From Microbacterium terregens (lineage in GTDB: Bacteria > Pseudomonadota > Alphaproteobacteria > Sphingomonadales > Sphingomonadaceae): DNA of 64,000 nt. Shown piece after piece: positions 13-54,785 of the stretch (its first letter is position 1; each line of letters starts with the position of its first letter). The translations under genes were made by a program, and so were the position numbers. The notes beneath the pieces were generated by a model that worked only from the letters and a program-made list of their open reading frames with translations, did no database searches and was not told where the DNA came from. The DNA lies in contig NZ_BSEX01000012.1 of the NCBI RefSeq assembly GCF_027922045.1, forward strand, positions 1-64,000, given 5' to 3'.

Positions 13-1122
13 GTGGTGGCGGCTGGCGAGGCGGCGCGCATCGTGGCGGTGGAGGCGGTGCTGTACCGTGTGCCGCTGGCCGAGGCGCTGGTCGATGCCG
101 GGCACGGCCTGCACACGCATTTCGAGCTTGTGACCTGTCGCATCGTCTGTGCCGACGGGGTGGAGGGTGTCGGCTACACCTACACCGGCGGCACCGGGGG
201 CGGCGCGATCCGCGCGCTGCTGCGCGAGGATATCGCCCCGCTGCTCAAGGGCGCCGATGCGCATGATGTCGAGGCGCTGGCCGCGCGCATGCGCGCCACG
301 CTACACTATCTCGGTGTTGGCGGCATCTGCGGCTTCGCCATCGCCGCCGCCGACATCGCGTTGTGGGACATTCGCTGCAAGCGGCTCGGCAAGCCGCTCT
401 GGCAGGTCGCCGGCGGCACCGATCCTGCCGTCCGCTGCTATCGCGGCCTCATCGACCTTGGCTATTCCGACGACCAGCTGCTCGAGCGCGTCGCCGCCGA
501 GTTCGCCGCCGGCCATACCGGCATCAAGCTCAAGGTCGGCCGCCCCGACATCGCCACCGACATCCGTCGCGTGCGCGCCGTGCGCGAACTGATCGGCACC
601 GATCGCGCGCTCATGACCGACGCCAACTATAGCTGGGACGCCCCCGCCGCCATCGCCTTTGCCCGCGGCGTCGAAGACATGAACCTGGCCTGGTTCGAGG
701 AACCCGTCGCCCATGACGACCTCGACGCCTATGCCAGCGTCGCCGCCGCCACCGCCATCCCGCTGGCTTCCGGCGAAAACCTGCGCACCCCGGCCGAGTT
801 CGGCCAGGCCATCGCCCATCACGCCATCGCCGTCCTCCAGCCCGACGCCTCCAATATCGGCGGCATCACCCCTTGGCTCGACGTCGCCCGCCGCGCCGCA
901 GCCGCCGGCAAACCCGTCGCATCGCACGGCATGCACGAACTCCACGTCTCCCTCATGGCCGCCATCCCCAACGCCGCCACCCTCGAAATCCACTCCTTCC
1001 CCATCGACGCCTACACCACCAACCCCACCACCGTCACAAACGGTAAAACCGCCGCTCCCAACACCCCAGGATCAGGCGTCTCCTTCAATACCCAACGCCT
1101 CAAACCACACAAAATCGGATAA
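13..1122 (+). CDS. 3,6-anhydro-L-galactonate cycloisomerase (enolase superfamily)
   Basis: Mandelate racemase/muconate lactonising enzyme fold, 369 aa. It probably opens 3,6-anhydro-L-galactonate to 2-keto-3-deoxy-L-galactonate, the second step of anhydrogalactose breakdown. From memory of the Vibrio enzyme, several stretches match: GYTYTGG near residue 55, HYLGVGGI near 98, QPDASNIGGIT near 275, SHGMHELHVSL near 302 and HSFPIDAYT near 325. The KLK base motif, metal ligands in DANYSW, FEEP and SGEN, and the C-terminal His are all visible. The reading frame is open to the left edge, so the true start could lie outside. It is followed after 5 bp by the dehydrogenase, so the two are probably co-transcribed. 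The substrate is inferred from similarity and agar context. Confidence 0.8.
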   Translation: MVAAGEAARIVAVEAVLYRVPLAEALVDAGHGLHTHFELVTCRIVCADGVEGVGYTYTGGTGGGAIRALLREDIAPLLKGADAHDVEALAARMRATLHYLGVGGICGFAIAAADIALWDIRCKRLGKPLWQVAGGTDPAVRCYRGLIDLGYSDDQLLERVAAEFAAGHTGIKLKVGRPDIATDIRRVRAVRELIGTDRALMTDANYSWDAPAAIAFARGVEDMNLAWFEEPVAHDDLDAYASVAAATAIPLASGENLRTPAEFGQAIAHHAIAVLQPDASNIGGITPWLDVARRAAAAGKPVASHGMHELHVSLMAAIPNAATLEIHSFPIDAYTTNPTTVTNGKTAAPNTPGSGVSFNTQRLKPHKIG

Positions 1123-1127
1123 GTGTC

Positions 1128-2153
1128 ATGCCACTCAAAAGTGCTGTCTATGTTGAAAAGGGCCGATTCGAACTCGCCGAGGGCAAGCGCCTCGAGCCGC
1201 AGGCCGGTGAAGTCACGATCCGCGTCGGCTATGTCGGCCTGTGCGGCACCGACCTTCACGTCTATCACGGAAACATGGACCATCGCGTCTGCCCGCCGGG
1301 CGTGATCGGACACGAGATGTCGGGCGTTATCGAAGCGGTAGGCAAGGATGTCGAGGGCTTTGCCGCTGGTGAGCGCGTCGTGGTTCGCCCGCTCGACTAT
1401 TGCGGCGATTGCCCGGCGTGCTCGGCGGGTCATTCGCACATCTGCCACAACCTTAAATTTATGGGCATTGACACGGCCGGTGCCCTGCAATCCTACTGGA
1501 CAGTGAAGGCGCGCACGCTGCACAAGCTTCCCGCGAATGTTGATCTGCGCCGCGGCGCGCTGGTCGAGCCGCTAGCCGTGGCCTGTCACGATGTCGCGCG
1601 TGCGCGCGTCGCGGCAGGCGAGAAGGCCGTGGTTCTAGGCGGCGGGCCTATCGGCCAGTTGATTGCACTGGTTGCGCGCGCACGGGGCGCCGATGTGCTG
1701 ATATCGGAACCGACCGCCGTGCGGCGGGCGTATGCCGCCAATGCCGGCTTCGCGACCTTCGACCCTGCTACAGGCGACCTTGCCGCGCATGTTATGGACT
1801 GGACCGGGACCAAGGGCGCTGACGTTGTTTTCGAGGTCGCGGGTGTTCAAGCCACCGTCAGCGCCATGACCGATATCGCCGCCGTGCGCGGCCGCATCTG
1901 CATGGTCGCTATCCATTCAACCAAGCCGCAGGTGGATCTGTTCCGCTTCTTCTGGCGCGAGCTCGAACTGGTGGGTGCCCGCGTGTACGAGGCAGTCGAT
2001 TTCGATGCCGCAATTGCCCTGATCGCCAGCGGCCAGGTCGATGTCGATGCGCTGATCACATCGGTCCATCCGATCGACCAGGTTCAGGCCGCGTTCGAAA
2101 CGCTCGACAGCCCCGATCCAGGTATGAAAACATTGCTGGAGTGCGAGGCATGA
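1128..2153 (+). CDS. Zinc-dependent medium-chain dehydrogenase, probable 2-keto-3-deoxy-L-galactonate 5-dehydrogenase
   Basis: Sorbitol/threonine dehydrogenase-type MDR, 341 aa, cytosolic. The catalytic zinc site is visible in GLCGTDLH and GHE (residues about 37 to 65). The structural zinc cysteines lie in DYCGDCPACSAGHSHIC (about 88 to 107), and the NAD fold motif GGGPIG is near 170. The gene sits between the cycloisomerase (5-bp gap) and a KduD-type reductase (ATGA overlap). That is the order expected if it oxidises 2-keto-3-deoxy-L-galactonate to the 2,5-diketo acid, as in the known anhydrogalactose pathway. The family is certain; the substrate is inferred from position. Confidence 0.75.
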   Translation: MPLKSAVYVEKGRFELAEGKRLEPQAGEVTIRVGYVGLCGTDLHVYHGNMDHRVCPPGVIGHEMSGVIEAVGKDVEGFAAGERVVVRPLDYCGDCPACSAGHSHICHNLKFMGIDTAGALQSYWTVKARTLHKLPANVDLRRGALVEPLAVACHDVARARVAAGEKAVVLGGGPIGQLIALVARARGADVLISEPTAVRRAYAANAGFATFDPATGDLAAHVMDWTGTKGADVVFEVAGVQATVSAMTDIAAVRGRICMVAIHSTKPQVDLFRFFWRELELVGARVYEAVDFDAAIALIASGQVDVDALITSVHPIDQVQAAFETLDSPDPGMKTLLECEA

Positions 2154-2917
2154 ACGCCGCTGAACTATTCGACCTGACCGGCCAAGTGGCGCTGGTAACC
2201 GGTTGCCGCCGCGGCATCGGCATGGCCATGGCCCTGGCGCTTGCCGAAGCAGGAGCGGATATCATCGGCGTATCGGCTTCGCTCGAGCCGGAGGACGAGG
2301 TGGCACGCGCTATTCGCGCGGCCGGCCGCGGCTTCCGAGGCTATCGCTGCGATTTCGCCGATCGCTCCGTGCTCAAGTCGACGATCGCAGCGATCCTGTC
2401 GGACAATCCACGCATCGACATTCTGGTCAACAATGCCGGCACGATCCTGCGAGCCCCAGCCGCCGAACATCCAGACGAGTTTTGGGACAAGGTGATCGAG
2501 GTCAATTTGTCAGCGCAGTTCCTGCTCACGCGTGAGATCGGTCGCGGCATGGTCGAGCGTGGCCATGGCAAGGTCATCTTCACGGCATCGCTGCTGTCAT
2601 ATCAAGGCGGGATAACAGTGCCCGGCTACGCGGCCAGCAAGGGCGGCGTTAAACAGCTGACGATGGCTTTCGCGAATGAATGGGCTTCAAAGGGCGTGAA
2701 CGTCAACGCGATTGCCCCGGGCTATATCTCGACGGATAATACCGAGGCTTTGAGAAACGATCCGGAACGCGCGCAATCGATTCTTTCACGGATACCGGCG
2801 GGTCGCTGGGGCGAGCCCCACGACTTCAAGGGCCCGACCCTCTTCCTCGCCTCGCGCGCATCCGACTATGTGCATGGCGCGACGCTGCTGGTCGACGGCG
2901 GGTGGATGGGCCGCTGA
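2150..2917 (+). CDS. kduD: KduD-type SDR, 2-dehydro-3-deoxy-gluconate 5-dehydrogenase/reductase
   Basis: Classical SDR, 255 aa. It has the TGCRRGIG nucleotide motif near residue 18, NNAG near 92, Ser and Tyr-x-x-x-Lys (YAASKGG) near 160, and the KduD tail signature GYISTDNTEALRND followed by ASDYVHG and DGGWMGR. KduD interconverts 2,5-diketo-3-deoxygluconate and 2-keto-3-deoxygluconate, exactly the step after the upstream dehydrogenase, and the product could feed the kinase at 50 kb. The start was chosen at the ATG overlapping the preceding stop (ATGA), with GGAG 8 bp upstream, rather than the GTG nine bases earlier. Confidence 0.8.
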   Translation: MNAAELFDLTGQVALVTGCRRGIGMAMALALAEAGADIIGVSASLEPEDEVARAIRAAGRGFRGYRCDFADRSVLKSTIAAILSDNPRIDILVNNAGTILRAPAAEHPDEFWDKVIEVNLSAQFLLTREIGRGMVERGHGKVIFTASLLSYQGGITVPGYAASKGGVKQLTMAFANEWASKGVNVNAIAPGYISTDNTEALRNDPERAQSILSRIPAGRWGEPHDFKGPTLFLASRASDYVHGATLLVDGGWMGR

Positions 2918-13381: not shown

Positions 13382-14530
13382 TTACCAGTTGGTGTAGGAA
13401 CCGTCGGGCTTATACCGCCGCGGGCATTCCCAGAATGCGAAGCTGCCAGCGCGCACCGCTGCTTCATCGACTTCAAGGCCCAGGCCGGGCGCGGTCGGAA
13501 TGGCAAAGCGGTTCCTCTCCAACTGCGGCCGATTCGGGAACAGGCGGTCATAATCGACCGTGCTTCGCCCATAGGGATCGACCTCCTGCCAGGACAGGTT
13601 CGGCACCGCCGCCGACATATGGATCGTCGCCATCGTGCATATCGGCCCGAGCGGGTCATGAGGCATGATGTCGATATAATGCGCTTCCGCCATCGCCGCG
13701 ATCTTCATCGCCTCGGTAAAACCCCCGACATTGCAGATGTCGATCCGCGCGAAATTTGTGAGGCCGCTTTCGATATAGGGGAGGAAATCCCATTTCGACG
13801 CGAACTCCTCGCCGATCGCAAAGGGCATGTCGGTCATGCTGCGCAGCTGGGTATAGGCCGCCGGGCATTGCTGGCGGATCGGTTCCTCCAGGAAATCGAG
13901 TGTACCGCTCGGCATGCGCTGGCAGAATGACGCCGCTTCGGCCGGTTGCAGGCGATGGTGGAAGTCGATACCCAGCACAACTTCGCTTCCTAAAGCGGCA
14001 CGCGCTTCGATCAGCGCGTCGGCGGCAACGGCGATCGCCTTGCGCGGATCATAAACGTGCGGGCCAGCGACAGACTCACCGGTGGTCGCGCGAATACAGT
14101 CCCACCCCATGTCCTTGAGCCGCACCATGTCGGCGATCATCGCTTCGCCATGCGCTTCGGTCGTGGTGATGAAACATGGAATATGGTCGCGTTGTGCTCC
14201 GCCGAGCAATTGATGTATTGGTACGCCCAGCGCCTTCCCGGCGATATCCCAAAGCGCAATGTCGATTGCGGAGATCGCCGCGGTGATCGTGCGTCCGCCC
14301 TCAAAGTAAGCGCCGCGATACATTTCCTGCCACAGCGCGCCAATCCTTCGCGCGTCCTGACCAACCAAAAATTGCTTCAGGTGCTCGACCATCGCTGTGA
14401 CCGCGAGCTCGCGCCCCGACAGCCCGGACTCGCCCCATCCAGCAATCCCCTCATCGGTATCGACTTTGACCAGGCAGATGTTGCGGTGATCCGCCCACAA
14501 GGGAAACGCCGAGATGTCGGTTATCTTCAT
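13382..14530 (-). CDS. D-galactonate dehydratase-like enolase-superfamily enzyme
   Basis: Protein of 382 aa resembling DgoD along its length: start MKITDISAFPL, metal ligands in GIDFHHRL, FLEEPI and IGEEF, and the base histidine in MPHDPLGPICTMA. The expected reaction is dehydration of a galactonate to 2-keto-3-deoxygalactonate. The start codon overlaps the stop of the GH50 gene (ATGA), so hydrolysis and galactose-acid catabolism are translationally coupled. The SMP-30 lactonase nearby could supply the acid. Other acid-sugar dehydratases of this superfamily cannot be excluded. Confidence 0.75.
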   Translation of the reverse strand: MKITDISAFPLWADHRNICLVKVDTDEGIAGWGESGLSGRELAVTAMVEHLKQFLVGQDARRIGALWQEMYRGAYFEGGRTITAAISAIDIALWDIAGKALGVPIHQLLGGAQRDHIPCFITTTEAHGEAMIADMVRLKDMGWDCIRATTGESVAGPHVYDPRKAIAVAADALIEARAALGSEVVLGIDFHHRLQPAEAASFCQRMPSGTLDFLEEPIRQQCPAAYTQLRSMTDMPFAIGEEFASKWDFLPYIESGLTNFARIDICNVGGFTEAMKIAAMAEAHYIDIMPHDPLGPICTMATIHMSAAVPNLSWQEVDPYGRSTVDYDRLFPNRPQLERNRFAIPTAPGLGLEVDEAAVRAGSFAFWECPRRYKPDGSYTNW

Positions 14531-16942: not shown

Positions 16943-16957
16943 CGTCAACTGTCTACA
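16943..16957. promoter_or_regulatory. Candidate GntR-regulon operator, GH50 copy 1
   Basis: CGTCAACTGTCTACA lies 63 bp before the GH50 start and touches the end of the SMP-30 gene. It is a degenerate form of the shared 15-bp palindrome. Confidence 0.45.
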
Positions 16958-17996
16958 ATGCGCGAAACCCTAGTCCGCCTACTTTGGTTCGCACACGGAG
17001 TAGGATGTCGTCCGATGTGATGAACAGCGTTGATCCGCCCTCGCCAAAGCAGCAATTTCCGGTCGCCCGTCCAGTACGGATCATCCCCAGCAATTGTGCC
17101 TCGGGCGTCAGGATCGCGACGCCCCCCGGCGCCGTTGCAAAGACGACCCCGTTGGAAGCTATTGCCATGCCGTCCGGGGCGCCCGGTGTATTGCCTGCCA
17201 GAAAGCGCGACATGTCAAACCAGGTGCTCTGGTCGCGCAGCCATCCTGATCCCGCTCGCGCATAGCGCACGATCCACGGACTGGCTGCGTCGGACACGGA
17301 AACGTAAAGGTGCTGGTCGCCCGGCGACAGGCCGATGCCGTTGGGAGCCACCAGCGTACCGTCAATTAGATCGATCTGCCCCGAGGGGGCGCGACAATAA
17401 ACGCCGTTCACGGAGCGCATACGCGCAATCGACTTCAGTCCTCCATCGAGGCCGAACGGCGGATCGGTGAAAAACAGCCGCCCATCGCTTGCAATGACCA
17501 GATCATTGGGGCTGTTGAACGCCGCCCCGGTGGCGCCACGCACAACCACATCCGGTGCCGCCGGCCGTCCCAGCGCATATTTGAGGATCGAACGCGTATC
17601 TTGGTCGCACACCAGCAGGGCATCTTCACCGGGCAGATAGAGCAGGCCATTGGTTCCCGGGTTCGCACCTGGGCCGGCGCCCCCGGCCCCTGCGGGTGAT
17701 CGCCAGACCGATATGCCGGTGCCCGATTGCCACGACATCATCTTGTTTGGCGGAATGTCGGAAAAATAGAGACGACGGCGCTTCTGGTCCCAGGTCGGCC
17801 CCTCGGCCCATTCGAAACCGCGACCGATCACTTCACAGGTCGGTGAGGCTCCAAGGACGGCGTCGAGGCGGCTGTCGAGACGCTCAATCCTGTTTTGAGG
17901 CTCAGCCTCCACTGCCCGCGAGCTTCCAATCAGTCCGGCAACAAGCCCGCCCGCCGTCATCGCCAGGCATCGCCGGCGCGGTATAACGCTGTTCAT
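16953..17996 (-). CDS. SMP-30/gluconolactonase-type lactonase, exported
   Basis: Six-bladed SMP-30/gluconolaconase fold, 347 aa. The metal-site Glu is in FEWAEGPTW (about residue 65), Asn in FNSPNDLVI (about 165) and Asp in GAPDGMAI (about 270). The leader MNSVIPRRRCLAMTAGGLVAG resembles a Tat signal. A lactonase would open galactono- or anhydrogalactonolactone made during agar sugar oxidation. It lies 145 bp after the sulfatase stop and 72 bp before the GH50 start, all on the minus strand. Confidence 0.8.
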   Translation of the reverse strand: MNSVIPRRRCLAMTAGGLVAGLIGSSRAVEAEPQNRIERLDSRLDAVLGASPTCEVIGRGFEWAEGPTWDQKRRRLYFSDIPPNKMMSWQSGTGISVWRSPAGAGGAGPGANPGTNGLLYLPGEDALLVCDQDTRSILKYALGRPAAPDVVVRGATGAAFNSPNDLVIASDGRLFFTDPPFGLDGGLKSIARMRSVNGVYCRAPSGQIDLIDGTLVAPNGIGLSPGDQHLYVSVSDAASPWIVRYARAGSGWLRDQSTWFDMSRFLAGNTPGAPDGMAIASNGVVFATAPGGVAILTPEAQLLGMIRTGRATGNCCFGEGGSTLFITSDDILLRVRTKVGGLGFRAL

Positions 17997-21969: not shown

Positions 21970-21980
21970 CCCGCCAGTCC

Positions 21981-23600: not shown

Positions 23601-23634
23601 ATCGGCCATCCTATCGAGCGACGCAGACAAAGAA

Positions 23635-23664
23635 AGGCGCCGCATTCAGGGGAATGCGGCGCCT
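23635..23664 (-). terminator. Strong intrinsic terminator/attenuator after TonB receptor 2
   Basis: A perfect 13-bp stem (AGGCGCCGCATTC/GAATGCGGCGCCT) with a four-base loop is followed on the minus strand by TTTCTTTGTCT. It lies 30 bp after the receptor stop and 35 bp before the halogenase start, so it can cut most transcripts and leave low readthrough. Confidence 0.75.
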
Positions 23665-28271: not shown

Positions 28272-30572
28272 CTACTTCAACGCCTTCTTTCCGAACCGGA
28301 CAGGATATAGTCGCCCGTTAATGCGCTTTGCCGCAGCGACCATTTCGGGATAGGGCACGTCCGCGACCGACACGAAGCCGACATTGTAATTTTCACCGTC
28401 ATAGGAACGGCCGGTCAGGGGTGAGTCGACATACTGGAACCAGTGCGCGCCGACGAACCACGGATTGGCGATCACGGCGTCCATGTACCGCTCATATTGC
28501 GCGGCGCGATCTTTCTGGTCGGACGCGAGGATCAGGCCGGGGTGATATAGTCCGGCGTCGCTCGCTCCCATGTGGAATTCACCGATCAAGCTGGGCTTGT
28601 CGATCTTCGCAAGGAAACTCCACGCGCCTTCGTGCGGGATCTCGCGATATTCGTTGTAGCTCATGATGTCGACGAACTCGCTTGCCGCCTCGATAACCTC
28701 CGGCGTCATGCCCCAGGTCGCAAAACGCACACCCATATAGAGGTGCTTGGGCAACACCTCATTGAGCGCGCCATCGACGACGCGGAAATATTCGCGCGCA
28801 TATGCCTTGAGCAGCATCGCGTAATCGGCCTGTCGCGCGGCGCCATGCTCCTTCAGCACGACACCCTTGGCGAGCGCGTCCCAGGACGCGATGTCTGCAC
28901 CCCACGCCGTATTGAGCGCGGCCACGGTGCCATATTTCTTGCGCAACAAGTTGACGAACACGGCCTTGGTTGGACTGTCGGAGGCGCTGCGCGATAAGGT
29001 ATTGATCACGATGCCATATTGGCCTTGGGGCGTGCCCATGCGGCCCCAGCTCTTCTCATTGTCGATGAAGATGCCGGCGCACCACGGACTACCCCGCACC
29101 TCCGAAGCCACCGACCGTGCGGTAACCCGGGCGCGTTCGGCAAAAAGGGGGTCGAAAGGATCGGGTAGCGGTGCCCAATAATCGTCACCGCTGCTCACCG
29201 TCTTGAAATTGCCGGTGATCCAGCCGTTGGCAAAATAGGGAAGCTGGGCCGTGGCGTAGTAGCTAGGTTCCAGCCAGTTGCCGAACGAGGTGAACCCCCA
29301 ATCAATCATGCGCTTGGTCGTCACATCTCGCCAGACCTTCATATAGGACGCGGGCGAAGTCTGGCCGTATCGCCGCTCTAGGTTGGCGCGGTAAAAGCTA
29401 TAGGCCTCCCCCTTCTTGAGTGGGCCGGAATGGACTTCGCTGCGATAGTCGAAATGGTCGCCCAGCGGATCGCTATAACTGGGAATCCACTGGAACATTT
29501 CGCGCCGCAGCTGGGACGCCACGAAGCGGCCAGGCAATGCCGAATCCGGCACCCGATAGAGGCCGGCGGAATCCTCGGGCGTCACGTCGTTCGCATCGCG
29601 CGGCTTCACCGACCCCGGCTTGAAATCATAGCCGGTCATGGTCGTCAGATTGGCCATGCGAATATTGTCGATTCCGGTGGCGAAGTAGAGATATCCCTCG
29701 GGATCGACCATCGCCCATTTTCCGTCGACCTTTTCGGTGCGGAAGAAACCGGTCGCCTTGAGCTTGGGTCCATTTTTCCAGCCGCCGTAGCGCGAGCGGT
29801 CAGACAGTGCCGCGCCGCGCAGTTGCGCGACCTCGGCGCGCGCCGCCGCCTGCAGTTGGGCATCTGATTTGACCTTGCCCACAAAGTCGATTTTCGCCGC
29901 CTGGCCATAGCGATCAACGATGCCCTTCAGATAGCTAGGGTCGGTAGACGGATTGCGTACGAGCCGGACCTTGTCGATCGTGATGCTCCGGTCGCTCGCT
30001 AGGCTGATCGACCCAATCTTGAATTCGCGAATGCCTGCCAGATCGAGTTCCTTGCTGCCCCACATCCACGTAAATTTACGCCCGACGCCGCGCCAATAAT
30101 TGGGATCGTCGCGCAAGCCGGTGTCCGCTTTGAGATCCGGCCCCTTGAGCGGCGCATAGTAGGTGCCGCCCCCACGGGCGGGAATGACCGTACTGCGCGT
30201 TGCGGCTCGTCCCGCTCCATCGACGATGTCGAGATTGAGCTGAACCGATTCACCGCCGGGATTGCGGATTTCCAAGGCGAGGCCAACAACATCCCCGCCG
30301 CGCCAGTCCCATGGCTTGGCGGGCCGGAAAGTAAGAGAGGTGTACAAATTCTCACGTGACTGGAGGTCGGCTCTCAGCGCATGCCCCTCAATGGTCTTTG
30401 CAATCGAAACCTGTGCATTGGCGGCTTGGAGCGAGGCGGGCACGATGCCATCCTCGAAATCGAAAATCATATCCTGGGTAGCGGCAGAACTTGAAACAGG
30501 GGACTGCGAGCTGGCGCCGACCGCCATCGTCGTTGTCAACAGCGCCAGAACTGCAATACTGCCTCGCTTCAT
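28272..30572 (-). CDS. GH50 beta-agarase, secreted
   Basis: Intact GH50 enzyme, 766 aa. Signal peptide (VLALLTTTMAVGASS), N-terminal CBM-like sandwich to about residue 200, then the TIM barrel. The acid/base Glu is in IDNEKSWG and the nucleophile in SLIGEFHMG; HWFQYVDSPLTGRSYDGENYNVGF matches the family end. GH50 exo-agarases release neoagarobiose. It is a paralogue of the frameshifted copy at 14.5 to 16.9 kb and may now carry that activity alone. ATG 30572 was chosen because GGGAGAG lies five bases upstream. A perfect regulon palindrome lies 50 bp upstream. Confidence 0.9.
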   Translation of the reverse strand: MKRGSIAVLALLTTTMAVGASSQSPVSSSAATQDMIFDFEDGIVPASLQAANAQVSIAKTIEGHALRADLQSRENLYTSLTFRPAKPWDWRGGDVVGLALEIRNPGGESVQLNLDIVDGAGRAATRSTVIPARGGGTYYAPLKGPDLKADTGLRDDPNYWRGVGRKFTWMWGSKELDLAGIREFKIGSISLASDRSITIDKVRLVRNPSTDPSYLKGIVDRYGQAAKIDFVGKVKSDAQLQAAARAEVAQLRGAALSDRSRYGGWKNGPKLKATGFFRTEKVDGKWAMVDPEGYLYFATGIDNIRMANLTTMTGYDFKPGSVKPRDANDVTPEDSAGLYRVPDSALPGRFVASQLRREMFQWIPSYSDPLGDHFDYRSEVHSGPLKKGEAYSFYRANLERRYGQTSPASYMKVWRDVTTKRMIDWGFTSFGNWLEPSYYATAQLPYFANGWITGNFKTVSSGDDYWAPLPDPFDPLFAERARVTARSVASEVRGSPWCAGIFIDNEKSWGRMGTPQGQYGIVINTLSRSASDSPTKAVFVNLLRKKYGTVAALNTAWGADIASWDALAKGVVLKEHGAARQADYAMLLKAYAREYFRVVDGALNEVLPKHLYMGVRFATWGMTPEVIEAASEFVDIMSYNEYREIPHEGAWSFLAKIDKPSLIGEFHMGASDAGLYHPGLILASDQKDRAAQYERYMDAVIANPWFVGAHWFQYVDSPLTGRSYDGENYNVGFVSVADVPYPEMVAAAKRINGRLYPVRFGKKALK

Positions 30573-30621
30573 GCCCACTCTCCCGTCACACTCGGCGAGC
30601 TTCGCCGATCCAGCCCTACAC

Positions 30622-31935: not shown

Positions 31936-32688
31936 TCAATAGGTCGTCCGCCCGCCGGACATATCAAATGTCGCCGCGGTGGAAAAAGTCGCGCGATCGG
32001 AGGCAAGGAAGCATATCATCTCCGCTACCTCGTCTGGCGTACCCGTACGGCCCATCGGAATCTTGGAAACCATGTAGCGGATTTGATCCTCGCTCACGTC
32101 ACTGAGCATTTCGGTCGCGATAACGGCCGGCGTAATGGTATTCGCGGTGATGTTCGTGTCGGCCAATTCCTTGCCAAGCGCCTTGGTCAAGTTGATCACC
32201 CCCGCTTTCGAAGCGGAATAGGCCGAGGCATTGGGATTGCCTTCCTTGCCTGCGACTGATGCGATCGTGACGATCCGGCCATAGTTCTGCCGGCGCATAT
32301 GCGGCACAACCGCACGGCAGCACAGGAACACGCCGCCGAGATTAACGCGCATCACCTGATCCCACACATCGGGGGGAAAGCTCTCAACCGGGGCATTGAC
32401 ACCGGCGATACCCGCCGCTGTGACTAGGATGTCGATCCCGCCCATCAGTGCCACCGCCCGCTCGGTCACGGCGGTGACCTCGTCCGCATCCGCGACATCC
32501 ACCGTTTGAATGTAAAGGCATCCCGTCGGAGCAAGCTTGCGCTCCACCTCCGCCAGTTGCTCGGCGTTGCGGTCCCACAGGCTCACAGTTGCTCCGCGCT
32601 CCAGCAGCATCCGCGCCGCCACAGCGCCTACGCCGCGCGCCCCGCCCGTGATGACCGCACGCTTGCCCGCAAATTCCCGGCTGCTCAT
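31936..32688 (-). CDS. SDR oxidoreductase, probable 2-keto-3-deoxy-acid 4-dehydrogenase
   Basis: Classical SDR, 250 aa: TGGARGVG, AAGIAG, catalytic Ser in IASVAG and YSASKAG. It resembles the 2-keto-3-deoxy-L-fuconate dehydrogenase type that oxidises C4 to give a 2,4-diketo acid. It is the last gene of a four-gene minus-strand operon (kinase, enolase paralogue, FAH hydrolase, SDR), 22 bp after the hydrolase, and would make the hydrolase's substrate. ATG 32688 was chosen because AGGAG lies just upstream; the longer frame lacks a site. Confidence 0.78.
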   Translation of the reverse strand: MSSREFAGKRAVITGGARGVGAVAARMLLERGATVSLWDRNAEQLAEVERKLAPTGCLYIQTVDVADADEVTAVTERAVALMGGIDILVTAAGIAGVNAPVESFPPDVWDQVMRVNLGGVFLCCRAVVPHMRRQNYGRIVTIASVAGKEGNPNASAYSASKAGVINLTKALGKELADTNITANTITPAVIATEMLSDVSEDQIRYMVSKIPMGRTGTPDEVAEMICFLASDRATFSTAATFDMSGGRTTY

Positions 32689-32710
32689 TATGCTCTCCTG
32701 CTGCCGCTCG

Positions 32711-33562
32711 TCAGGCAAGCGGCTCAACGGTCTGGGCCTGTTCACCCAAGCCCTCGATGCCCAGCGTCACGCGATCACCCGCTTTCAGCCATTGCGGCGG
32801 CTTCATACCCGCGCCCACGCCCGGTGGCGTGCCGGTGCAGATCAGATCGCCGGGCTCCAGCCGTGTAAATTCACTCATGTATGAAACGATGGTTGCGACG
32901 TCGAAGATCATCCTGGAAGTACTGCCCGTCTGCTTGCGCTCCCCGTTGACGTCGAGCCACATGGACAGCGACTGCACGTCATCCACGGCTTGGCGCGTCG
33001 CCAGATACGGCCCGACCGGACAGAAGTTCGGGAACGACTTGCCCTTCACCCACTGACCCTCGCGCTCCATTTGCCAGGCGCGTTCTGACACGTCGTTCAC
33101 CAGCACATAACCAAACACATGTTCGAGCGCAGCGTCGTGCGACACGTTCAGCGCCGCTTTGCCGATCACGATCCCAAGTTCGACTTCCCAGTCGAGCTTG
33201 GTCATTTGTGGCGACATCAGGATCGGATCGTTCGGTCCGCAATAGGTGACGGCCGCCTTGTTGAAGAGGATCGGCTCCTTCGGGATCGCCATCCCCGCCT
33301 CCGCCGCGTGGTCGCTATAGTTCAGGCCGATGCACCAGATCGTCCCTGGCTGCGCCATCGGCGCGTCGATCCGCCGGCCGGTCAGATCGACCAGCGGCAG
33401 CGATGTGATTTCAGTTTCCGCAATCCGCTCGATCAGCGCATCGCGAAGTGTTCCTGGCCTAAGATCGGACACCAAGGTAGAAATATCCCGGGCGCTGCCG
33501 TCAGCATGGAGGATGCAAGGCACGACCCTCCCGTCCCCCATGTCTACCCGAAGAAACCGCAT
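32711..33562 (-). CDS. FAH-family hydrolase, 2,4-diketo-3-deoxy-acid hydrolase type
   Basis: Fumarylacetoacetate hydrolase fold, 283 aa: CIGLNYSDHAAEAG near residue 90, metal ligands in DWEVELGIVIG near 150, then NDVSERAWQ, GKSFPNFCPVGP and the end signature GDLICTGTPPGVGAGM. This matches the L-2,4-diketo-3-deoxyfuconate hydrolase/ureidoglycolate lyase group. It would cut a 2,4-diketo-3-deoxyhexonate into pyruvate and a C3 acid: lactate from a 6-deoxy sugar, glycerate from a normal hexose. It lies 16 bp after the enolase paralogue; AAGGAA lies seven bases before the ATG. Confidence 0.8.
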   Translation of the reverse strand: MRFLRVDMGDGRVVPCILHADGSARDISTLVSDLRPGTLRDALIERIAETEITSLPLVDLTGRRIDAPMAQPGTIWCIGLNYSDHAAEAGMAIPKEPILFNKAAVTYCGPNDPILMSPQMTKLDWEVELGIVIGKAALNVSHDAALEHVFGYVLVNDVSERAWQMEREGQWVKGKSFPNFCPVGPYLATRQAVDDVQSLSMWLDVNGERKQTGSTSRMIFDVATIVSYMSEFTRLEPGDLICTGTPPGVGAGMKPPQWLKAGDRVTLGIEGLGEQAQTVEPLA

Positions 33563-33578
33563 GTATAATTCCTTTCGT

Positions 33579-34889
33579 TCATCTGCCTAAGGGCCGCTTC
33601 GCGCCCCACCAAGTTCCCTCGATCGGACGTCCGCCGACGAACGCGCCCATCCCCCCCTGTCCCTGAAAGCGCAGGCATTCGTTCCATTTCGCCATCCGTT
33701 CGGACCGCGCGAACGAGCCGACTTTCAGCTGTCTGGCATCAAGCCCGGCCGCGAGGTGACAGATCGACACATCCTCAGTTTCGCCCGATCGTGCTGAGAC
33801 CAGCGTGCCAAAGCCCCGCTCCTTAGATACGCGCAGCGCCTCGATCGTCTCGGTCACCGTACCGGCCTGATTGACCTTGATGAGCGAAGCGTTGCAGCCG
33901 CCCGCGTCTGCTGCAGCCTCGATCAGCCTCGCATTGGTGACGAGATAATCATCGCCGACGATCTGGAGCCGGTCGCCCCAGCGCGCGGTGAAGGCGCGCA
34001 TGCCTTCTGGGTCGCGCTCCGATGCGGGATCCTCGATCGATACAATGGGATAGCGATCGACCCAATTGCCTAACCGCTCGAGCCACTCGCCGCTATCCAG
34101 TTCAAGTCCGTCTAGGCCAAGGATGTAGCGGCCGTCCCGCTCAAACTCGGACGCCGCGACATCGAGCGAGATGACGACGCGCTCGCCGGGCACCTCACCT
34201 GCCGCCTCGATCGCCTGGACCAGCAGCTCGAGCGCCTCCTCGTTGGTCGAAACCGTCGGCCACCATCCGCCTTCATCGGCGACCCCAACGGCCCCGCCGC
34301 GCGCCTCCATGAGCCGGCCGGCAGCGTGATAGACCGCGTTGGTGACTTCCATGGCCTCCTCGAGATCGTCTGCGCCGGGCACCATGATCATGAAATCTTG
34401 GATATCCACGCGCCGCCCGGCATGCGCGCCCCCGCCAAAGATCTGAATTTCCGGCAGCGGGATGGTGGGCGTCGCGTCGTGCCCGTCGGCCAGGTATCGC
34501 CATAGGGGCAAACGAGCGCTGGCCGCAGCGGCGTGCAATATTGCGAGCGAAACCGCGACGATCGCGTTGCCGCCAAGCTCCGTCTTGAGCGGTGTGCCGT
34601 CCAGCGCGAGCATGGCCGCATCCACGCCGGCCTGATCCGTCGCGGGCATGCCCCGCAGTCTTGCTGCGATCGGCCCGTTGACGTTGGCGACGGCGCGCGA
34701 AACGTCTTTGCCACCGAGGCGCTCGCCCCCATCCCGAAGCTCGATCGCCTCGCGCTCGCCGCGCGACGCGCCGGACGGCGCGATCGCACGCCCGATGCTG
34801 CCGTCGGTGAGCGTCACTTCGGCCTCAACGGTCGGGTTGCCGCGCGAATCCCACACGCGGCGACCAAGTATCGATTGGATGGTGCTCAT
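33579..34889 (-). CDS. Enolase paralogue with altered active site
   Basis: Full-length enolase, 436 aa. Metal ligands are kept (D243, E286 in SIED, the VGDD Asp near 313), as are the base K338 (LIKVNQ), the acid Glu in DEGG (E206), H156 and K389. Two usual active-site residues differ: the Glu of DIQEFM is Asp (D165), and the His of S-H-R-S-G-E-T is Ala (A366). The first loop reads SGASRGERE instead of the usual SGASTG. It overlaps the kinase gene by four bases and is followed by an FAH hydrolase and an SDR. So it is a catabolic paralogue, not the housekeeping eno, and may act on a non-standard 2-phospho-hydroxyacid. Confidence 0.82.
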   Translation of the reverse strand: MSTIQSILGRRVWDSRGNPTVEAEVTLTDGSIGRAIAPSGASRGEREAIELRDGGERLGGKDVSRAVANVNGPIAARLRGMPATDQAGVDAAMLALDGTPLKTELGGNAIVAVSLAILHAAAASARLPLWRYLADGHDATPTIPLPEIQIFGGGAHAGRRVDIQDFMIMVPGADDLEEAMEVTNAVYHAAGRLMEARGGAVGVADEGGWWPTVSTNEEALELLVQAIEAAGEVPGERVVISLDVAASEFERDGRYILGLDGLELDSGEWLERLGNWVDRYPIVSIEDPASERDPEGMRAFTARWGDRLQIVGDDYLVTNARLIEAAADAGGCNASLIKVNQAGTVTETIEALRVSKERGFGTLVSARSGETEDVSICHLAAGLDARQLKVGSFARSERMAKWNECLRFQGQGGMGAFVGGRPIEGTWWGAKRPLGR

Positions 34890-35887
34890 GCGCGTCGCGC
34901 CTCCATTCGGGTAGCAATGTGCTTAATGGTGGCAGCTGGACGGTCGATCAGATCAAGTGCGATGGAGCGGACGGTCTGTTTCGCCTCGGCATTCAGATAT
35001 TCGACCGGCGATTTGCCATCGACTCGTGCCAACAGCAGCAGTGGGGCCAGATCAGCAACACGCCTCTCCAGCGCCGCCACCGGCTCCCAATCGAGATGCT
35101 CGCAATAGCCGTCCCATAGCGCCCGCGCGGCGCGGAGCAGCGCTGCATTGCTGTCGGGAATGTGCACCCACTTCAAGAGCAGGTGGTTGAGGCAGAAGCC
35201 GATATCGAAGGCGGGATCCCCCATCGTGGCGCATTCGGCGTCGAGCAGCACCGGCACGCCGTCGCGCACTAAAATGTTCTTGGGGCTGACATCCCCATGA
35301 ATGAGCGCGATCCGACAAACACGGTATTGTTCAGCCAGCGCCAGCACCCGCGCTTCGAGCTGCGGATATGTTGCGACCAGATGGATGAAATAAGGCTCGA
35401 CGCGGAGCGCGAAGAAATCCTCTGCCGTGCCGAAACGGTCGGGGTCTAGCACGCGGCCCGCGGATGCGTCGTGGAGGCGACCGAGCAGCCTGCCCGCTTC
35501 CCGCGCAATCCCGGAATCGACCCTGCCGGCAACCAGTTCATCTTTCCAGTTTCGAGCTCCTCCGGCAACCATTTCCATGGCAAAGCCTTGTTCGCGCTCA
35601 CTATGGCCATATAGTCGCGGCACCGAGTCCGGCGCCACAGAGGCCGCAAACTTCAGCCACGCATATTCCGTGCGATTGCGGTGGATGGGCGCCTCCCATC
35701 GAGCCGCCACTCGGAGCACTTCGAGGGCGAACTTTGCGCAATATGCCTGACCGTCGACATCGACGCGAAGCACGTCCGACGACACTCCGCCCGTCAGGCA
35801 TGTTGCGGCAATCACGGCCTGAGGCCCTGCGAGGCCGAACTCTTGCATCAATCGCCGGCATCGTTCCATCAGTTCTCGGTGAACCAT
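34886..35887 (-). CDS. APH-fold small-molecule kinase
   Basis: Aminoglycoside-phosphotransferase/choline-kinase fold, about 333 aa. The catalytic loop IHGDVSPKNIL and the metal Asp in VLLDAECATMGDPAFD are intact; the nucleotide loop TGGVSSDVLRV and Lys in YCAKFA are near the N-terminus. It is first in a four-gene operon and overlaps the enolase paralogue start (ATGA). That coupling suggests it makes the enolase's phosphorylated substrate, for example by 2-phosphorylating a glycerate. A GTG at 35905 lies inside a palindromic operator, so ATG 35887 is preferred. The substrate is inference. Confidence 0.72.
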   Translation of the reverse strand: MVHRELMERCRRLMQEFGLAGPQAVIAATCLTGGVSSDVLRVDVDGQAYCAKFALEVLRVAARWEAPIHRNRTEYAWLKFAASVAPDSVPRLYGHSEREQGFAMEMVAGGARNWKDELVAGRVDSGIAREAGRLLGRLHDASAGRVLDPDRFGTAEDFFALRVEPYFIHLVATYPQLEARVLALAEQYRVCRIALIHGDVSPKNILVRDGVPVLLDAECATMGDPAFDIGFCLNHLLLKWVHIPDSNAALLRAARALWDGYCEHLDWEPVAALERRVADLAPLLLLARVDGKSPVEYLNAEAKQTVRSIALDLIDRPAATIKHIATRMEARRA

Positions 35888-35898
35888 CTCAAATCCAA

Positions 35899-35912
35899 TG
35901 TTCACGTGAACA
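35899..35912. promoter_or_regulatory. Palindromic operator, LacI type
   Basis: TGTTCACGTGAACA, a perfect 14-bp palindrome, sits between the divergent kinase operon and the LacI gene, 12 bp before the kinase ATG and 66 bp before the LacI start. The even-length, central CG-type palindrome is typical for LacI family regulators. Confidence 0.6.
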
Positions 35913-35977
35913 ATGGCGCTATTGCATATTTAAGGATATCATTGCAAGCGAATAGTTCCCCGTCAGAAAGATCCGCT

Positions 35978-37018
35978 GTGCCGGCCAAGGTAACTGTCAA
36001 GACACTGGCTCGGGAGCTCGGCATTTCGCACATGACGGTATCGCGCGCGATAAATAATCATCCCAACGTCAGCGTCGATATGCGCGAGCGGGTACTGAAA
36101 CTGGCGTTCGATCGGGGCTACATCCAGTCGTCCGCCGCCAAGGCGCTGCGCGGGATGAAATCCGGCACGATCGGGCTGCTGCTGCCCAATATCGTCAACG
36201 ACTTCTACGCCCGGTTTGCCCAGGCCTTTGGCGACCTGTGCGCAGCGCGGCGGCTTAACGTCGTTATCCATCTGACAAGCGAGGACCCCGAACGTGAGCG
36301 GCAGGCTCTCGAGCAACTGCGCGGGTTGCACGCCGATGTTGCGATCATTGTTCCCACCCTGGCAGCTGAGGGACGGGCAGCGGAAACCTCCGGGGAAGCC
36401 ATACGTCGTCTATACTTGATCCGAAGCCCGGCGGTGCTACGGCCCGCGCAATTCGTAGGTATCGATGATACCGCCGCGATCGACGAAGCGGTTGCGCACC
36501 TCGTTCAGCGCGGGCATCGCTTGATCGCATTCATTGGTCCGTCCTTGGCGCTGTCGTCGGGACGCGGCCGGCGGGAAGCGTTCGCGCGAGCGATGGCTGC
36601 TGCGGGCCTCTCGCCCAGCGATGAGCGCACATTGTCCGGACCTGCCGTCTACGATCACGGTCGGGACAGCGTACGTAAATGTCTGGCACTCGAGTTTCCG
36701 CCCACTGCAATCCTGTGCGCCGGCGTTGAGATCGCTCGAGGCGCGCTTGAACAATTGCTGGAGAACGATGTGCTCCTCGGCGAACAACTGGCGTTTATCG
36801 GCTATGGGGATCCCGCCGTTTATCGTTGGCTCAATGGCGGCGTCTCGACGATTGGCCTCCCGACCGAAGCCCTCGCGCGATCAACGTTCGAACTGGCCAT
36901 CTCAGACGACCCGACGACCGAAGCTGCAATTCAGCACCTAGCTAGGCTGATCATCCGGCCCTCATCGGGACCGACCGAACCGAGGCACGTTCCACGCGCT
37001 GCCTCGGCGGTGTCATAG
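35978..37018 (+). CDS. LacI-family transcriptional regulator
   Basis: About 346 aa. The N-terminal LacI helix-turn-helix (TVKTLARELGISHMTVSRAIN) is followed by a periplasmic-binding-protein-like effector domain (GTIGLLLPNIVNDFYARFAQ, FVGIDDTAA, FIGYGDPAVYRWLNGG). It is divergent from the four-gene kinase operon across a perfect palindrome, so it probably represses that operon and itself until a sugar acid binds. GTG 35978 is taken as the start because the domain begins within a few residues; the ribosome site is weak. Its 3' end overlaps the converging formylglycine-generating enzyme relic by 88 bp. Confidence 0.82.
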   Translation: MPAKVTVKTLARELGISHMTVSRAINNHPNVSVDMRERVLKLAFDRGYIQSSAAKALRGMKSGTIGLLLPNIVNDFYARFAQAFGDLCAARRLNVVIHLTSEDPERERQALEQLRGLHADVAIIVPTLAAEGRAAETSGEAIRRLYLIRSPAVLRPAQFVGIDDTAAIDEAVAHLVQRGHRLIAFIGPSLALSSGRGRREAFARAMAAAGLSPSDERTLSGPAVYDHGRDSVRKCLALEFPPTAILCAGVEIARGALEQLLENDVLLGEQLAFIGYGDPAVYRWLNGGVSTIGLPTEALARSTFELAISDDPTTEAAIQHLARLIIRPSSGPTEPRHVPRAASAVS

Positions 37019-39117: not shown

Positions 39118-39843
39118 TCAAAATCCGATTGAGAATCCGGCGTCCACGGGCAGTGCCACGCCATTGATATAAACGGCCTCGTCGCTCGCCAGGAAGAAGC
39201 AGGCATTGGCAACATCCTCGGCCCTACCGAAGCGGCCCGTGGGGATACGTCCTTCGATCTTTGCACGGCGCGCTGGATCTTTGGCGAGTACGGCGCGCGT
39301 CATGTCGGTTTCGATGAAGCCGGGGCAAACCGCGTTGCAGCGGATGCCATGCTGAGCCGCATCCACGGCGATACTGCGCGTCAGGCCGATCACTGCGGTC
39401 TTTGAAGTGACGTACGCGGCAGCGCTTGGCAATGCGATCAGTCCCGCCATCGACGAGATGTTGACGATCGCCCCTCCCCGCTTCCGGTTCAGCTCGACGA
39501 ACCTCGCGCTCGCCGCGAACGGCGCCATCAAATTGATGGCAATTACCGTCTCCAGTTCATCGGGCTCGACCTGTTCAAGGGGCTTCTTGAGGTGCACGCC
39601 GGCATTGTTGATCAGCACGTCGATCCCGCCGACATCATCGGCGATCCGGTCGAGAAAGTCGGCGTTGCGCCACTCCGACAAATCGGCGGCCACGAATGAC
39701 AGACCCTCGCCGGCACTCAGTCCGTCCAGATCGCCGCGCGAACGGGCCACGACATGGACGCGGTATCCGCCCGCCAGGAACCGGCGCGTCTGCGCCAGCC
39801 CCAGCCCGCGGTTGCCTCCGGTAATAACTGCAACGCGGCTCAT
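39118..39843 (-). CDS. SDR oxidoreductase, 5-keto-sugar-acid reductase type
   Basis: Classical SDR, 241 aa: TGGNRGLG, NNAG near residue 88, Ser in ISSMAG and YVTSKTA, with end GVALPVDAGFS. It overlaps the solute-binding-like gene by four bases and lies 11 bp before the idonate-dehydrogenase-like gene, so the pair probably shuttles a hexonate through a keto intermediate. No sequence feature fixes the substrate. Confidence 0.72.
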   Translation of the reverse strand: MSRVAVITGGNRGLGLAQTRRFLAGGYRVHVVARSRGDLDGLSAGEGLSFVAADLSEWRNADFLDRIADDVGGIDVLINNAGVHLKKPLEQVEPDELETVIAINLMAPFAASARFVELNRKRGGAIVNISSMAGLIALPSAAAYVTSKTAVIGLTRSIAVDAAQHGIRCNAVCPGFIETDMTRAVLAKDPARRAKIEGRIPTGRFGRAEDVANACFFLASDEAVYINGVALPVDAGFSIGF

Positions 39844-42148: not shown

Positions 42149-42189
42149 CCGCTCCTCCCGTCGGGACTCAGACACCCGGTCCTTGCTAA

Positions 42190-42227
42190 TTTGCATATAA
42201 CGAAGTTATTTGCAAATACCGAAATTA
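42190..42227. promoter_or_regulatory. Near-perfect palindrome, candidate IclR operator
   Basis: A 27-bp imperfect palindrome (42190 to 42216; arms TTTGCAT-ATAAC and GTTAT-TTGCAAA around GAA) overlaps two tandem 19-bp repeats (42190 to 42208 and 42209 to 42227, 16 of 19 identical). It lies 42 bp from the CoA-transferase start and 28 bp from the enoyl-CoA hydratase start. It is AT-rich in a GC-rich region. Confidence 0.6.
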
Positions 42228-50061: not shown

Positions 50062-51072
50062 ATGGCTGGCCGTATCGTTTGTTTCGGGGAATTATTGTTT
50101 CGTCTCACTGCCCCTGGACGCGAGCTCCTGATGCAGACCGGCAATCTCGATGTGCATGTTGGCGGCGCTGAGGCAAACGTCGGCATTGGCCTCGCCAATC
50201 TGGGCCATGCGGTTTCGATGGTCAGCGCAGTACCGGACAATCCGCTGGGCCAGGCGGCGATCCGCTTCGTGCGAGGACAGGGCCTGAATACGCATAATGT
50301 ACAGATACGCGACGGGCGGATGGGGCTGTACTTCCTTTCGGCCGGCGCAGGGCTGCGCGCATCGGACATCGTCTATGATCGCGCGGCATCAAGTTTCGCG
50401 GCCGCGCCCACAGACGCATTTGACTGGCGCGCGATTCTAGACGGCGCAGCGATGTTGCATCTGTCGGGCATTACCCCCGCGCTCGGTCCAGCAACCGCAC
50501 AGGCCACACTCTCCGCGGCACGCGCTGCTAGAGGACTTGGGGTGCAAGTGAGCTTCGACGGCAACTACCGCGCGCGCTTGTGGGAAACGTGGGACAGCGA
50601 TCCGCGCGCGGTCCTGACGGAACTGGTCAGCCTCACCGACACAATGTTCGGCAACCATCGAGACATCTCGCTGCTGCTGGGCGAGCAATTCTCGGGTGAC
50701 GGCCCTAACCGTCGGCGCGAGGCCGCTGAAGCCGCCTTTGCCGCCTTCCCCAACCTACAGCGAATCGCCTCGACCGCGCGGCACATCGATGACACTGACC
50801 GTCACCGCATTGCTGCGCGCGTCGATACGCGCGAACGAGGATATCAGACCGAAGATGTGGTTGTGGCCGGCATTGTAGACCGAATTGGTGGAGGCGACGC
50901 ATATGCCGCGGGAATCCTTCACGGTGTGCTGTCGGGTCAGGACCTGGAGGCGATCGTCGCCACTGGCCTCGCGCTCACTTGTCTCAAACACTCGCTGCCA
51001 GGCGATGCAAGCTTGTTCAGCCAAGCAGATATCGCTGCCTTCCTCCAGGGCGCATTAGACGTACGCAGATGA
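50062..51072 (+). CDS. kdgK: 2-keto-3-deoxygluconate kinase (PfkB family)
   Basis: PfkB/ribokinase fold, 336 aa: N-terminal motif VCFGELLFRLTAPG, GGAEANVGIGLANLG near residue 35, SFDGNYRARLW near 165, and the C-terminal anion-hole motif DRIGGGDAYAAGIL with the catalytic Asp. 2-keto-3-deoxygluconate kinases share this layout. The product KDPG would go to an aldolase outside the window. It completes the route from anhydrogalactose via the KduD-type reductase at 2 kb. Start ATG has GAGGAG six bases upstream. Confidence 0.82.
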   Translation: MAGRIVCFGELLFRLTAPGRELLMQTGNLDVHVGGAEANVGIGLANLGHAVSMVSAVPDNPLGQAAIRFVRGQGLNTHNVQIRDGRMGLYFLSAGAGLRASDIVYDRAASSFAAAPTDAFDWRAILDGAAMLHLSGITPALGPATAQATLSAARAARGLGVQVSFDGNYRARLWETWDSDPRAVLTELVSLTDTMFGNHRDISLLLGEQFSGDGPNRRREAAEAAFAAFPNLQRIASTARHIDDTDRHRIAARVDTRERGYQTEDVVVAGIVDRIGGGDAYAAGILHGVLSGQDLEAIVATGLALTCLKHSLPGDASLFSQADIAAFLQGALDVRR

Positions 51073-54737: not shown

Positions 54738-54785
54738 TCGCACATTCGTGCTTTTAGGTACGGCACTCTGCAGGCGGGGACTCCC

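Follow-up and report, generated by a model that had tools for sequence, protein, structure and literature searches.

In the non-phosphorylative L-rhamnose/L-fucose route, a KDR or KDF 4-dehydrogenase is followed by a 2,4-diketo-3-deoxy acid hydrolase. KDR-type SDRs are described as 4R, and the L-KDF dehydrogenase (L-KDFDH), whose Trp252 binds the methyl group, is reported to use L-KDGal as well, with a kcat/Km about 20 times its value for D-KDGlu. The bacterial 3,6-anhydro-L-galactose route proceeds via L-KDGal, and the passages of PMC11219438 on KDGal give two fates for it, an aldolase or a kinase plus an aldolase. Glycerate kinases of classes I (PF02595) and II (MOFRL, PF13660) lead, together with the housekeeping enolase, to PEP; three such kinases tabulated in PMC2063504 show 13-34% activity with L-glycerate. 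A paper from 1979 names in its title the conversion of L-galactose to lactate plus glycerate.

With these systems we compare a four-gene cassette in a window of 64,000 nucleotides (the whole stretch of DNA that was analysed). All four genes lie on the minus strand: an APH-fold small-molecule kinase (34886..35905, GTG start; PF01636), probably a glycerate 2-kinase; an enolase paralogue (33579..34889; TIGR01060, 458.6 bits, exceeding the cut-off of 300); an FAH-family hydrolase, probably for 2,4-diketo-3-deoxy acids (32711..33562; PF01557); and an SDR that is probably a KDR-type (4R) 4-dehydrogenase for 2-keto-3-deoxy acids (31936..32688; PF13561/PF00106). The true start of the kinase is likely the ATG near position 35887 (approximately), since this inner ATG is the start in most aligned homologues. 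A LacI-family regulator is divergent on the plus strand (about 35978..37018; PF00356, PF13377). The sequence-only reading had proposed this layout and these four families; re-reading the window confirms gaps of 16 and 22 bp and an ATGA kinase/enolase junction, and the family profiles agree. The nearest genome compared (G001) carries the cassette at 95-98% protein identity. The cluster is also conserved farther afield: FAH and a KDR- or KDF-type SDR occur near the enolase, on the same strand, in 18 of 76 kinase-plus-enolase loci, with FAH proteins that are 63-68% identical, and this recurrence of all four families rules out chance clustering. L020 and L028, both among these 18, have the kinase oriented away from the other three genes.

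The cassette probably has its own operator. A perfect palindrome, TGTTCACGTGAACA, is found once in the window (35899..35912), and its 12-base core lies upstream of the kinase in 16 of 17 LacI-kinase loci. Sites with at most one mismatch number 1-4 per genome, compared with 0-1 for the control. We take the palindrome to be the LacI site, at which the LacI protein probably represses the cassette. An automated inverted-repeat search returned no match; the palindrome is evident by eye and by pattern. For one-mismatch sites far from the cassette (G352, G355, G358, G362) no clear link was found, and G364 has two further one-mismatch sites.

Our preferred reading, to which we give a probability of roughly 0.47, is that the SDR and FAH hydrolase yield pyruvate and glycerate, and that the kinase and enolase take L-glycerate through 2-phospho-L-glycerate to PEP. 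By the chemistry of their families, the SDR would oxidise a 2-keto-3-deoxyhexonate at C4 and the hydrolase would cleave the 2,4-diketo acid to pyruvate and glycerate; the kinase would then add a phosphate to O2 of glycerate, giving a 2-phosphoglycerate from which the altered enolase would remove water to form PEP. L-galactose-type acids of red-algal galactans would be the source of L-glycerate. The intermediate is most likely 2-phospho-L-glycerate rather than the D form, because classical kinases turned up in nearly all of the carriers examined and the enolase has two invariant pocket changes with its chemistry kept. If the module does handle L-glycerate, it would close a gap in the full use of L-galactose and related red-algal sugars and would provide an enolase with a different phosphoglycerate substrate. 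We put forward more tentatively the general form of this idea, a mirror-image end of glycolysis in bacteria, in which a dedicated kinase makes 2-phospho-L-glycerate and an Asp168/Ala370 enolase subfamily converts it to PEP; if true, this would give cells a way to salvage L-glycerate that arises from L-sugars or elsewhere.

The core of the cluster is the kinase-enolase pair. The variant enolase is present in 76 of 80 kinase loci and is adjacent on the same strand in 62 (pair counts are from tblastn, because gene calling lost some genes). In a 289-genome class sample, 26 genomes are kinase-positive; 21 of these have the variant enolase, adjacent in 20, and all 21 enolases have the Asp/Ala signature, while the other five have no enolase within the stretch fetched, which in one case ends at a contig edge. 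Neither FAH/SDR nor a 2-hydroxyacid dehydrogenase (2HADH) is nearby in 34 of the 76 loci, and the pair is therefore a module of its own. It is found in Alpha-, Beta- and Gammaproteobacteria, Actinomycetota, Acidobacteriota and halophilic archaea. Existing annotations read "phosphopyruvate hydratase" and "aminoglycoside phosphotransferase", labels that hide the two-enzyme module.

The kinase differs from both classical glycerate kinase classes: PF02595 and PF13660 are absent, PF01636 (APH) is the sole domain match, and the best solved folds for its AlphaFold model (mean pLDDT 90) are methylthioribose kinases (TMq about 0.71-0.82). The models show the fold alone, with no ligand placed, and do not decide between D and L. 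An antibiotic-resistance enzyme was considered and set aside, given the pairing with enolase and the methylthioribose kinase folds.

The enolase shares with phosphopyruvate hydratase (TIGR01060) its fold, length, metal ligands, Lys base, Glu acid, loop Ser and phosphate-binding Arg/Ser, but its gene travels with that of the APH kinase and its family differs at specific residues. We aligned 192 paralogues with seven housekeeping enolases (E. coli numbering throughout). E168D is found in 190/190 and H370A in 191/191 paralogues (D165 and A366 in the window enolase), compared with Glu and His in 7/7 housekeeping enolases; G207A occurs in 192/192 and A213W in 188/192. Two relatives outside the alignment (L062, L095) have Gly rather than Ala at 370. 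The base Lys342, acid Glu209, metal ligands Asp246, Glu290 and Asp317, and also Ser42, Arg371 and Lys393, are retained. Positions 168 and 370, both of which now have smaller side chains, presumably sit beside the leaving group. According to the part of PMC4450660 on the Chloroflexus enolase, Glu165 of that enzyme touches 2-PGA; we take this residue to be the changed position 168, because its partner residues share numbering with the window enolase. The His of HRS373-375 is listed among substrate-pocket residues of enolase (PMC9933520). The cassette enolase is thus a probable 2-phospho-(L-)glycerate dehydratase forming PEP. It had been called an extra, non-housekeeping copy, and indeed G001 holds a second enolase, 44% identical to it, with standard residues.

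Is a D-glycerate route sufficient? Under this alternative, which we regard as unlikely though the most serious one, the kinase is one more glycerate 2-kinase and its partner enolase takes 2-phospho-D-glycerate; their D-glycerate would come from D-galactonate by way of a 4R SDR and FAH or, at other loci, from hydroxypyruvate converted by a D-2-hydroxyacid dehydrogenase. However, a classical glycerate kinase (MOFRL or class I) already coexists in 34 of 36 chosen carriers, and a normal enolase would be enough, yet the kinase pairs with a changed one whose changes are invariant in the alignment. This upholds the earlier argument from duplication, that an ordinary product needs no enolase of its own. 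The companion argument, that ordinary glycerate kinases cannot handle L-glycerate, was too strong in view of the 13-34% activities in the table cited above (PMC2063504). The two carriers in which no classical glycerate kinase was found (L040, L064) favour the D-glycerate route. A MOFRL kinase is present in 20 of 21 paired-module genomes of the class sample, compared with 130 of 263 kinase-negative genomes (Fisher p 1.8e-5, genome size uncontrolled).

The neighbouring genes point in both directions and weaken the proposal that the C3 acid is L-glycerate. The window SDR, whose best solved relative is 6D9Y (264.9 bits; PMC11199699 names it a putative L-KDR dehydrogenase), belongs to the KDR type, which would be better suited to D-KDGal than to L-KDGal and so to D-glycerate; KDF-type SDRs of the same KDR- or KDF-dehydrogenase clade occur in relatives. 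D-galactonate-dehydratase-like genes also count against L: one near L011 scores 415.6 bits (cut-off 311) and one near L037 is 55% identical to E. coli DgoD. The window homologue, an MR/MLE acid-sugar dehydratase and possible galactonate dehydratase (13382..14530, minus strand; NF010624, 279.1 bits, cut-off 311; best solved relative 3RR1), is just 33.5% identical to DgoD; its substrate is possibly D- or L-galactonate, and it possibly feeds the cassette. In 18 of 76 loci the pair has a 2HADH of the D-specific family nearby (closest to phosphoglycerate dehydrogenase and glyoxylate reductase, with scores below cut-off). This favours the D-glycerate route and suggests D-acids at those loci, where the enolase signature is unchanged.

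Counted for the L series are the preference of L-KDFDH for L-KDGal over D-KDGlu and an L-fuconolactonase-like gene adjoining the pair in L022 (202.6 bits, cut-off 400). In all 15 KDF-type SDRs beside the module, Ile occupies the presumed position of the methyl-binding Trp252, which we also count as an L-series pointer. At the position of the first of four L-KDFDH ligand residues, 4 of the 15 have Arg, 10 have Lys and one has Asn, and retention of Arg in only four counts against L; the Thr ligand is replaced by Val in two. A KDF-type SDR occurs elsewhere in the genome in G001 (51% identity) and G010 (55%), whereas the same search of the L040 and L064 genomes yielded none. Annotated ppc, 2HADH and kinase genes are consecutive in Rhizobium indicum (L092); L074 has a gene 78% identical to this ppc and L082 one of the same cluster (ppc neighbours were noted in these three loci, outside any systematic survey). 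The PEP carboxylase in L092 would fit PEP as the product and counts for the L-glycerate reading, and for D-glycerate as well.

It also speaks against a further, rather improbable explanation, that the pair acts on some other 2-phospho-3-substituted acid, the kinase using a C4 aldonate or a glycerate with a C3 sulfate or sulfonate. The side chains shrunk by E168D and H370A would enlarge the pocket and permit a bulkier or different leaving group; two sulfatases lie in the window and sulfatase-like genes near the cassettes of L016, L042 and L096; and the 34 loci lacking FAH/SDR and 2HADH fit as well. Nevertheless, the phosphate- and metal-binding residues of enolase are kept, and no window gene was seen to dictate a C4 or sulfonated substrate.

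That SDR and FAH form an ordinary L-rhamnose/L-fucose-type route to pyruvate and L-lactate, the pair having a separate job, is very improbable: FAH is indeed closest to 2,4-didehydro-3-deoxy-L-rhamnonate hydrolase (NF053535; best solved relative 8GSR, L-2,4-diketo-3-deoxyrhamnonate hydrolase, 259.5 bits), the SDR to a putative KDR dehydrogenase, and the pair also occurs without them, but FAH, at 336 bits, falls short of the cut-off of 500, all four families are found together repeatedly, the methyl-binding Trp is replaced in the KDF-type SDRs, and an enolase would find no 3-hydroxyl to eliminate on phospho-lactate. The cassette adds to that route a kinase and enolase, which implies that the C3 acid carries a 3-hydroxyl. 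The earlier suggestion that the route is undescribed fits the kinase-enolase half alone; the first half has forerunners in the 1979 title and the activity of L-KDF dehydrogenase on L-KDGal. We found no open-licence paper that joins 2-phospho-L-glycerate or an L-glycerate kinase with enolase; related matches concern CpgD. 2-Phospho-L-glycerate is sold commercially, with a catalogue number given in PMC13228409.

The suggested agar/porphyran setting is supported. A trio on the plus strand resembles the 3,6-anhydro-L-galactose (AHG) route, which shares this polysaccharide setting: an MR/MLE protein, probably a 3,6-anhydro-L-galactonate cycloisomerase (13..1122; best solved relative 5XD7, 348 bits), a Zn-dependent alcohol dehydrogenase, possibly a KDGal 5-dehydrogenase (1128..2153; NCBIfam below cut-off), and a KduD-like SDR (2150..2917; TIGR01832, 322.3 bits, cut-off 338.85). 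The route as set out in the relevant passages of PMC11219438 mentions neither a hydrolase nor an enolase paralogue, whereas the cassette has both. Also present are an SMP-30/gluconolactonase-like protein, possibly an aldonolactonase (16953..17996, minus strand; PF08450), and a KDG kinase-like sugar kinase (50062..51072, plus strand; NF041633, 271.6 bits, and NF041332, 182.2 bits, both under cut-off). Because the window thus carries its own probable cycloisomerase-to-KDG route, anhydro-L-galactose, which had also been proposed as an input to the cassette, is a less likely though conceivable one, and we set it aside. For our preferred reading we also count that an AHG-type trio lies beside the cassette in L011 and in L155 (the same genome as L028), and the trio or its KduD-like member in L011, L155 and L064.

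On the minus strand of the window the cassette reads, as transcribed, APH-fold kinase (34886-35905), enolase paralogue (33579-34889), FAH hydrolase (32711-33562) and SDR (31936-32688), with one ATGA junction followed by gaps of 16 and 22 bp; a LacI gene (35978-37018, plus strand) diverges from the kinase gene. This is the layout that the sequence-only reading described. Cassette and LacI gene are also present in the nearest genome compared (G001), with proteins 95-98% identical to those of the window. The gene content suggests a red-algal galactan locus: agarase CBM domains occur in two proteins (14527-16686; 28272-30578) and a porphyranase domain in another (47509-48873), accompanied by two sulfatases, a pair of TonB receptors and a lactonase-like protein of the SMP-30 type. 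Two tryptophan-halogenase-family genes face each other between a sulfatase and a TonB receptor gene (20452-23645), and a mobile or defence-like stretch (53164-56180) holds genes for a resolvase, a PIN-domain protein and a TIR-domain protein. A weak solute-binding-like protein adjoins a CoA-transferase-like gene (39840-42196); this duo recurs (L040, 4596-8010; L164, 2-1785) beside the Hirschia cassette and, by eye, in G001 near a KDF-type SDR (the clade of the L-fucose route) and an aldo-keto-reductase-like gene.

The core of the cassette is the kinase-enolase pair, a module that is real and widespread. Scanning the kinase alignment against genomes of named species confirmed at least 555 relatives, of which we retained the best 80, a set skewed to close relatives. 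Among these best 80 of at least 555, tblastn finds the variant enolase in 76 loci, within 200 bases of the kinase and on the same strand in 62 (kinase first in 58, enolase first in 4), and does not find it in the examined stretches of L049, L058, L065 and L085. In an evenly drawn class sample of 289 genomes, 26 have the kinase; 21 of these carry the variant enolase in the stretch examined, adjacent in 20, and none was found around the kinase in G064, G080 (where the contig stops just past it), G125, G312 and G331. Haladaptatus also carries the pair, with an identical enolase signature. Our literature search found no paper on the pair, and as far as our searches reach the module is undescribed.

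What distinguishes this enolase? To seven housekeeping enolases, from E. coli and six relatives from the same order, we aligned 72 paralogues from the loci, among them the window's, together with the top 120 homologues in the database. In E. coli numbering, position 168 is Asp in all 190 paralogues with a residue there and position 370 is Ala in all 191, as against Glu and His, respectively, in 7/7 housekeeping enolases; further changes are G207A (192/192) and A213W (188/192). By tblastn over the 76 loci, from the best 80 of at least 555, Asp-168 is read in 75 (one uncovered) and Ala-370 in 74 (one uncovered; Gly in L062). The paralogues keep the base, acid, metal and phosphate residues; the variant shares the catalytic machinery of the housekeeping enzyme but differs at two pocket positions, where the G001 housekeeping enolase has the standard residues. 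Both positions presumably sit near the leaving hydroxyl. Base and acid in yeast enolase are Lys345 and Glu211, and Glu165, which from matching numbers would be the changed Glu, is among the 2-PGA contacts in Chloroflexus (excerpt of PMC4450660). The His belongs to the substrate pocket (excerpt of PMC9933520). A distant protein on an Enterobacter plasmid (L095) also has Gly at the Ala position; there the enolase relative lies on the opposite strand from a distant kinase relative, among U32 peptidase, aminotransferase, M14 peptidase, nucleotidyltransferase and MFS genes, which may be a biosynthetic cluster.

The neighbourhoods of the pair vary. Over the 76 loci (from the best 80 of at least 555), counted with identity and distance thresholds of our own choosing and on contigs sometimes short enough to hide genes, FAH and SDR lie near the enolase in 18, a 2-hydroxyacid dehydrogenase (2HADH) is near in 18, and none has both; FAH alone occurs in 4 (3 also in the 2HADH group), SDR alone in 5, and none of the three in 34. 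All four families of the cassette come together in 18 of these 76 loci. In L071 a 2HADH gene lies at greater distance. In this cassette the module is coupled to an SDR and an FAH that probably split a keto acid. Several Rhodobacterales and Roseibium FAH-SDR operons also have a sugar ABC transporter and a sugar 1-dehydrogenase-like SDR, and carry both KDF-type and KDR-type SDRs (KDR being the L-rhamnose clade). Some 2HADH-group clusters contain VOC dioxygenase, carboxymuconolactone decarboxylase, ADH, cupin and FAH genes; this catabolic cluster, with kinase, enolase, 2HADH and a VOC protein, is common to two phyla (Rhizobium L092, Rhodococcus L093, Paraburkholderia L063, Arthrobacter L057). Rhizobium indicum has a PEP carboxylase gene followed by 2HADH and the kinase, with the enolase 4.7 kb off on the opposite strand. 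The window itself has a C-terminal PEP carboxylase fragment (48691-49671; profile positions 575-898 of 898) near transposase genes, 54% identical to the ppc adjoining the kinase in L092.

The cassette is tied to agar-type sugars by a recurring trio found at the window start (cycloisomerase-like, Zn-ADH, KduD-like). In Ruegeria (L155; 50, 57 and 71% identity) the trio directly precedes an enolase-FAH-SDR-SDR-ABC operon, in Cognatishimia (L011; 48, 58 and 66%) it adjoins the cassette, and in Sphingopyxis (L064) a KduD-like gene (76%) lies near the cassette. In 15 aligned KDF-type SDRs the L-KDFDH ligand positions are Arg 4/Lys 10/Asn 1, Thr 13/Val 2, Arg 15 and Arg 15, and the putative Trp252 position, located by counting along the alignment, is Ile in 15/15. 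Trp252 holds the C6 methyl in L-KDFDH, whose kcat/Km falls from 7900 with L-KDF to 1480 with L-KDGal and 75.2 with D-KDGlu (excerpt of PMC11199699). These residues and kinetics favour L-series hydroxylated substrates. Against this, the only SDR of the window cassette is of KDR type, and D-type galactonate-dehydratase-like enzymes lie near L011 and L037. Both lines would fit if the route received acids of D-galactose as well as L-galactose, with a classical kinase handling D-glycerate and the pair handling L-glycerate.

The pair likely yields PEP from a glycerate. We favour, with a probability slightly below one half (about 0.47), the reading that L-glycerate, released with pyruvate by SDR and FAH, would be converted via 2-phospho-L-glycerate; retention of the first KDFDH ligand residue in only 4/15 lowered this from 0.48. 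D-glycerate, made slightly more probable by the same residue, and another acid as substrate are both live rivals. A kinase making only 2-phospho-D-glycerate should, however, leave a special enolase needless. Classical glycerate kinases are also common in carriers. The MOFRL type (PF13660) occurs in 152/289 class genomes and class I (PF02595) in 9/289; with genome size uncontrolled, MOFRL is in 22/26 kinase-positive genomes (Fisher, p = 7e-4) and in 20/21 pair-bearing versus 130/263 kinase-negative ones (p = 1.8e-5). Among 36 chosen carriers (18 with FAH and SDR, 18 with 2HADH), 26 have MOFRL, 10 class I and 34 at least one (16/18 and 18/18, respectively). The pair probably does not simply serve a D-glycerate route. 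The earlier suggestion that ordinary glycerate kinase and enolase fail on L-glycerate is weakened in its kinase half, since three glycerate kinases have 13-34% activity with L-glycerate (excerpt of PMC2063504), making a dedicated kinase less needed; the need for a dedicated enolase is untouched. Two titles cited in PMC13406643 are forerunners: that of Chan et al. 1979 foreshadows glycerate from L-galactose, and that of Watanabe et al. 2019 foreshadows non-phosphorylative L-galactose pathways in bacteria. Fates given for 2-keto-3-deoxygalactonate are an aldolase, or a kinase plus aldolase (excerpt of PMC11219438).

The palindrome TGTTCACGTGAACA occurs once in the window (35899-35912). Of the 17 loci where a divergent LacI gene adjoins the kinase, 16 have the palindrome's 12-base core without a mismatch; for the remaining one, L021, a site with one mismatch is present in the genome. 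With at most one mismatch the 14-mer occurs 1-4 times per genome, versus 0-1 for a reversed control (19 genomes). Conserved ahead of the kinase gene and scarce in the genomes of carriers, the palindrome probably marks the regulon of the LacI protein. Further sites precede ABC transporters in L149 and L096 and a tripartite tricarboxylate transporter in L096, and in L037 one precedes a TRAP operon that lies downstream of genes for IlvD, a KDR-type SDR and a DgoD-like protein.
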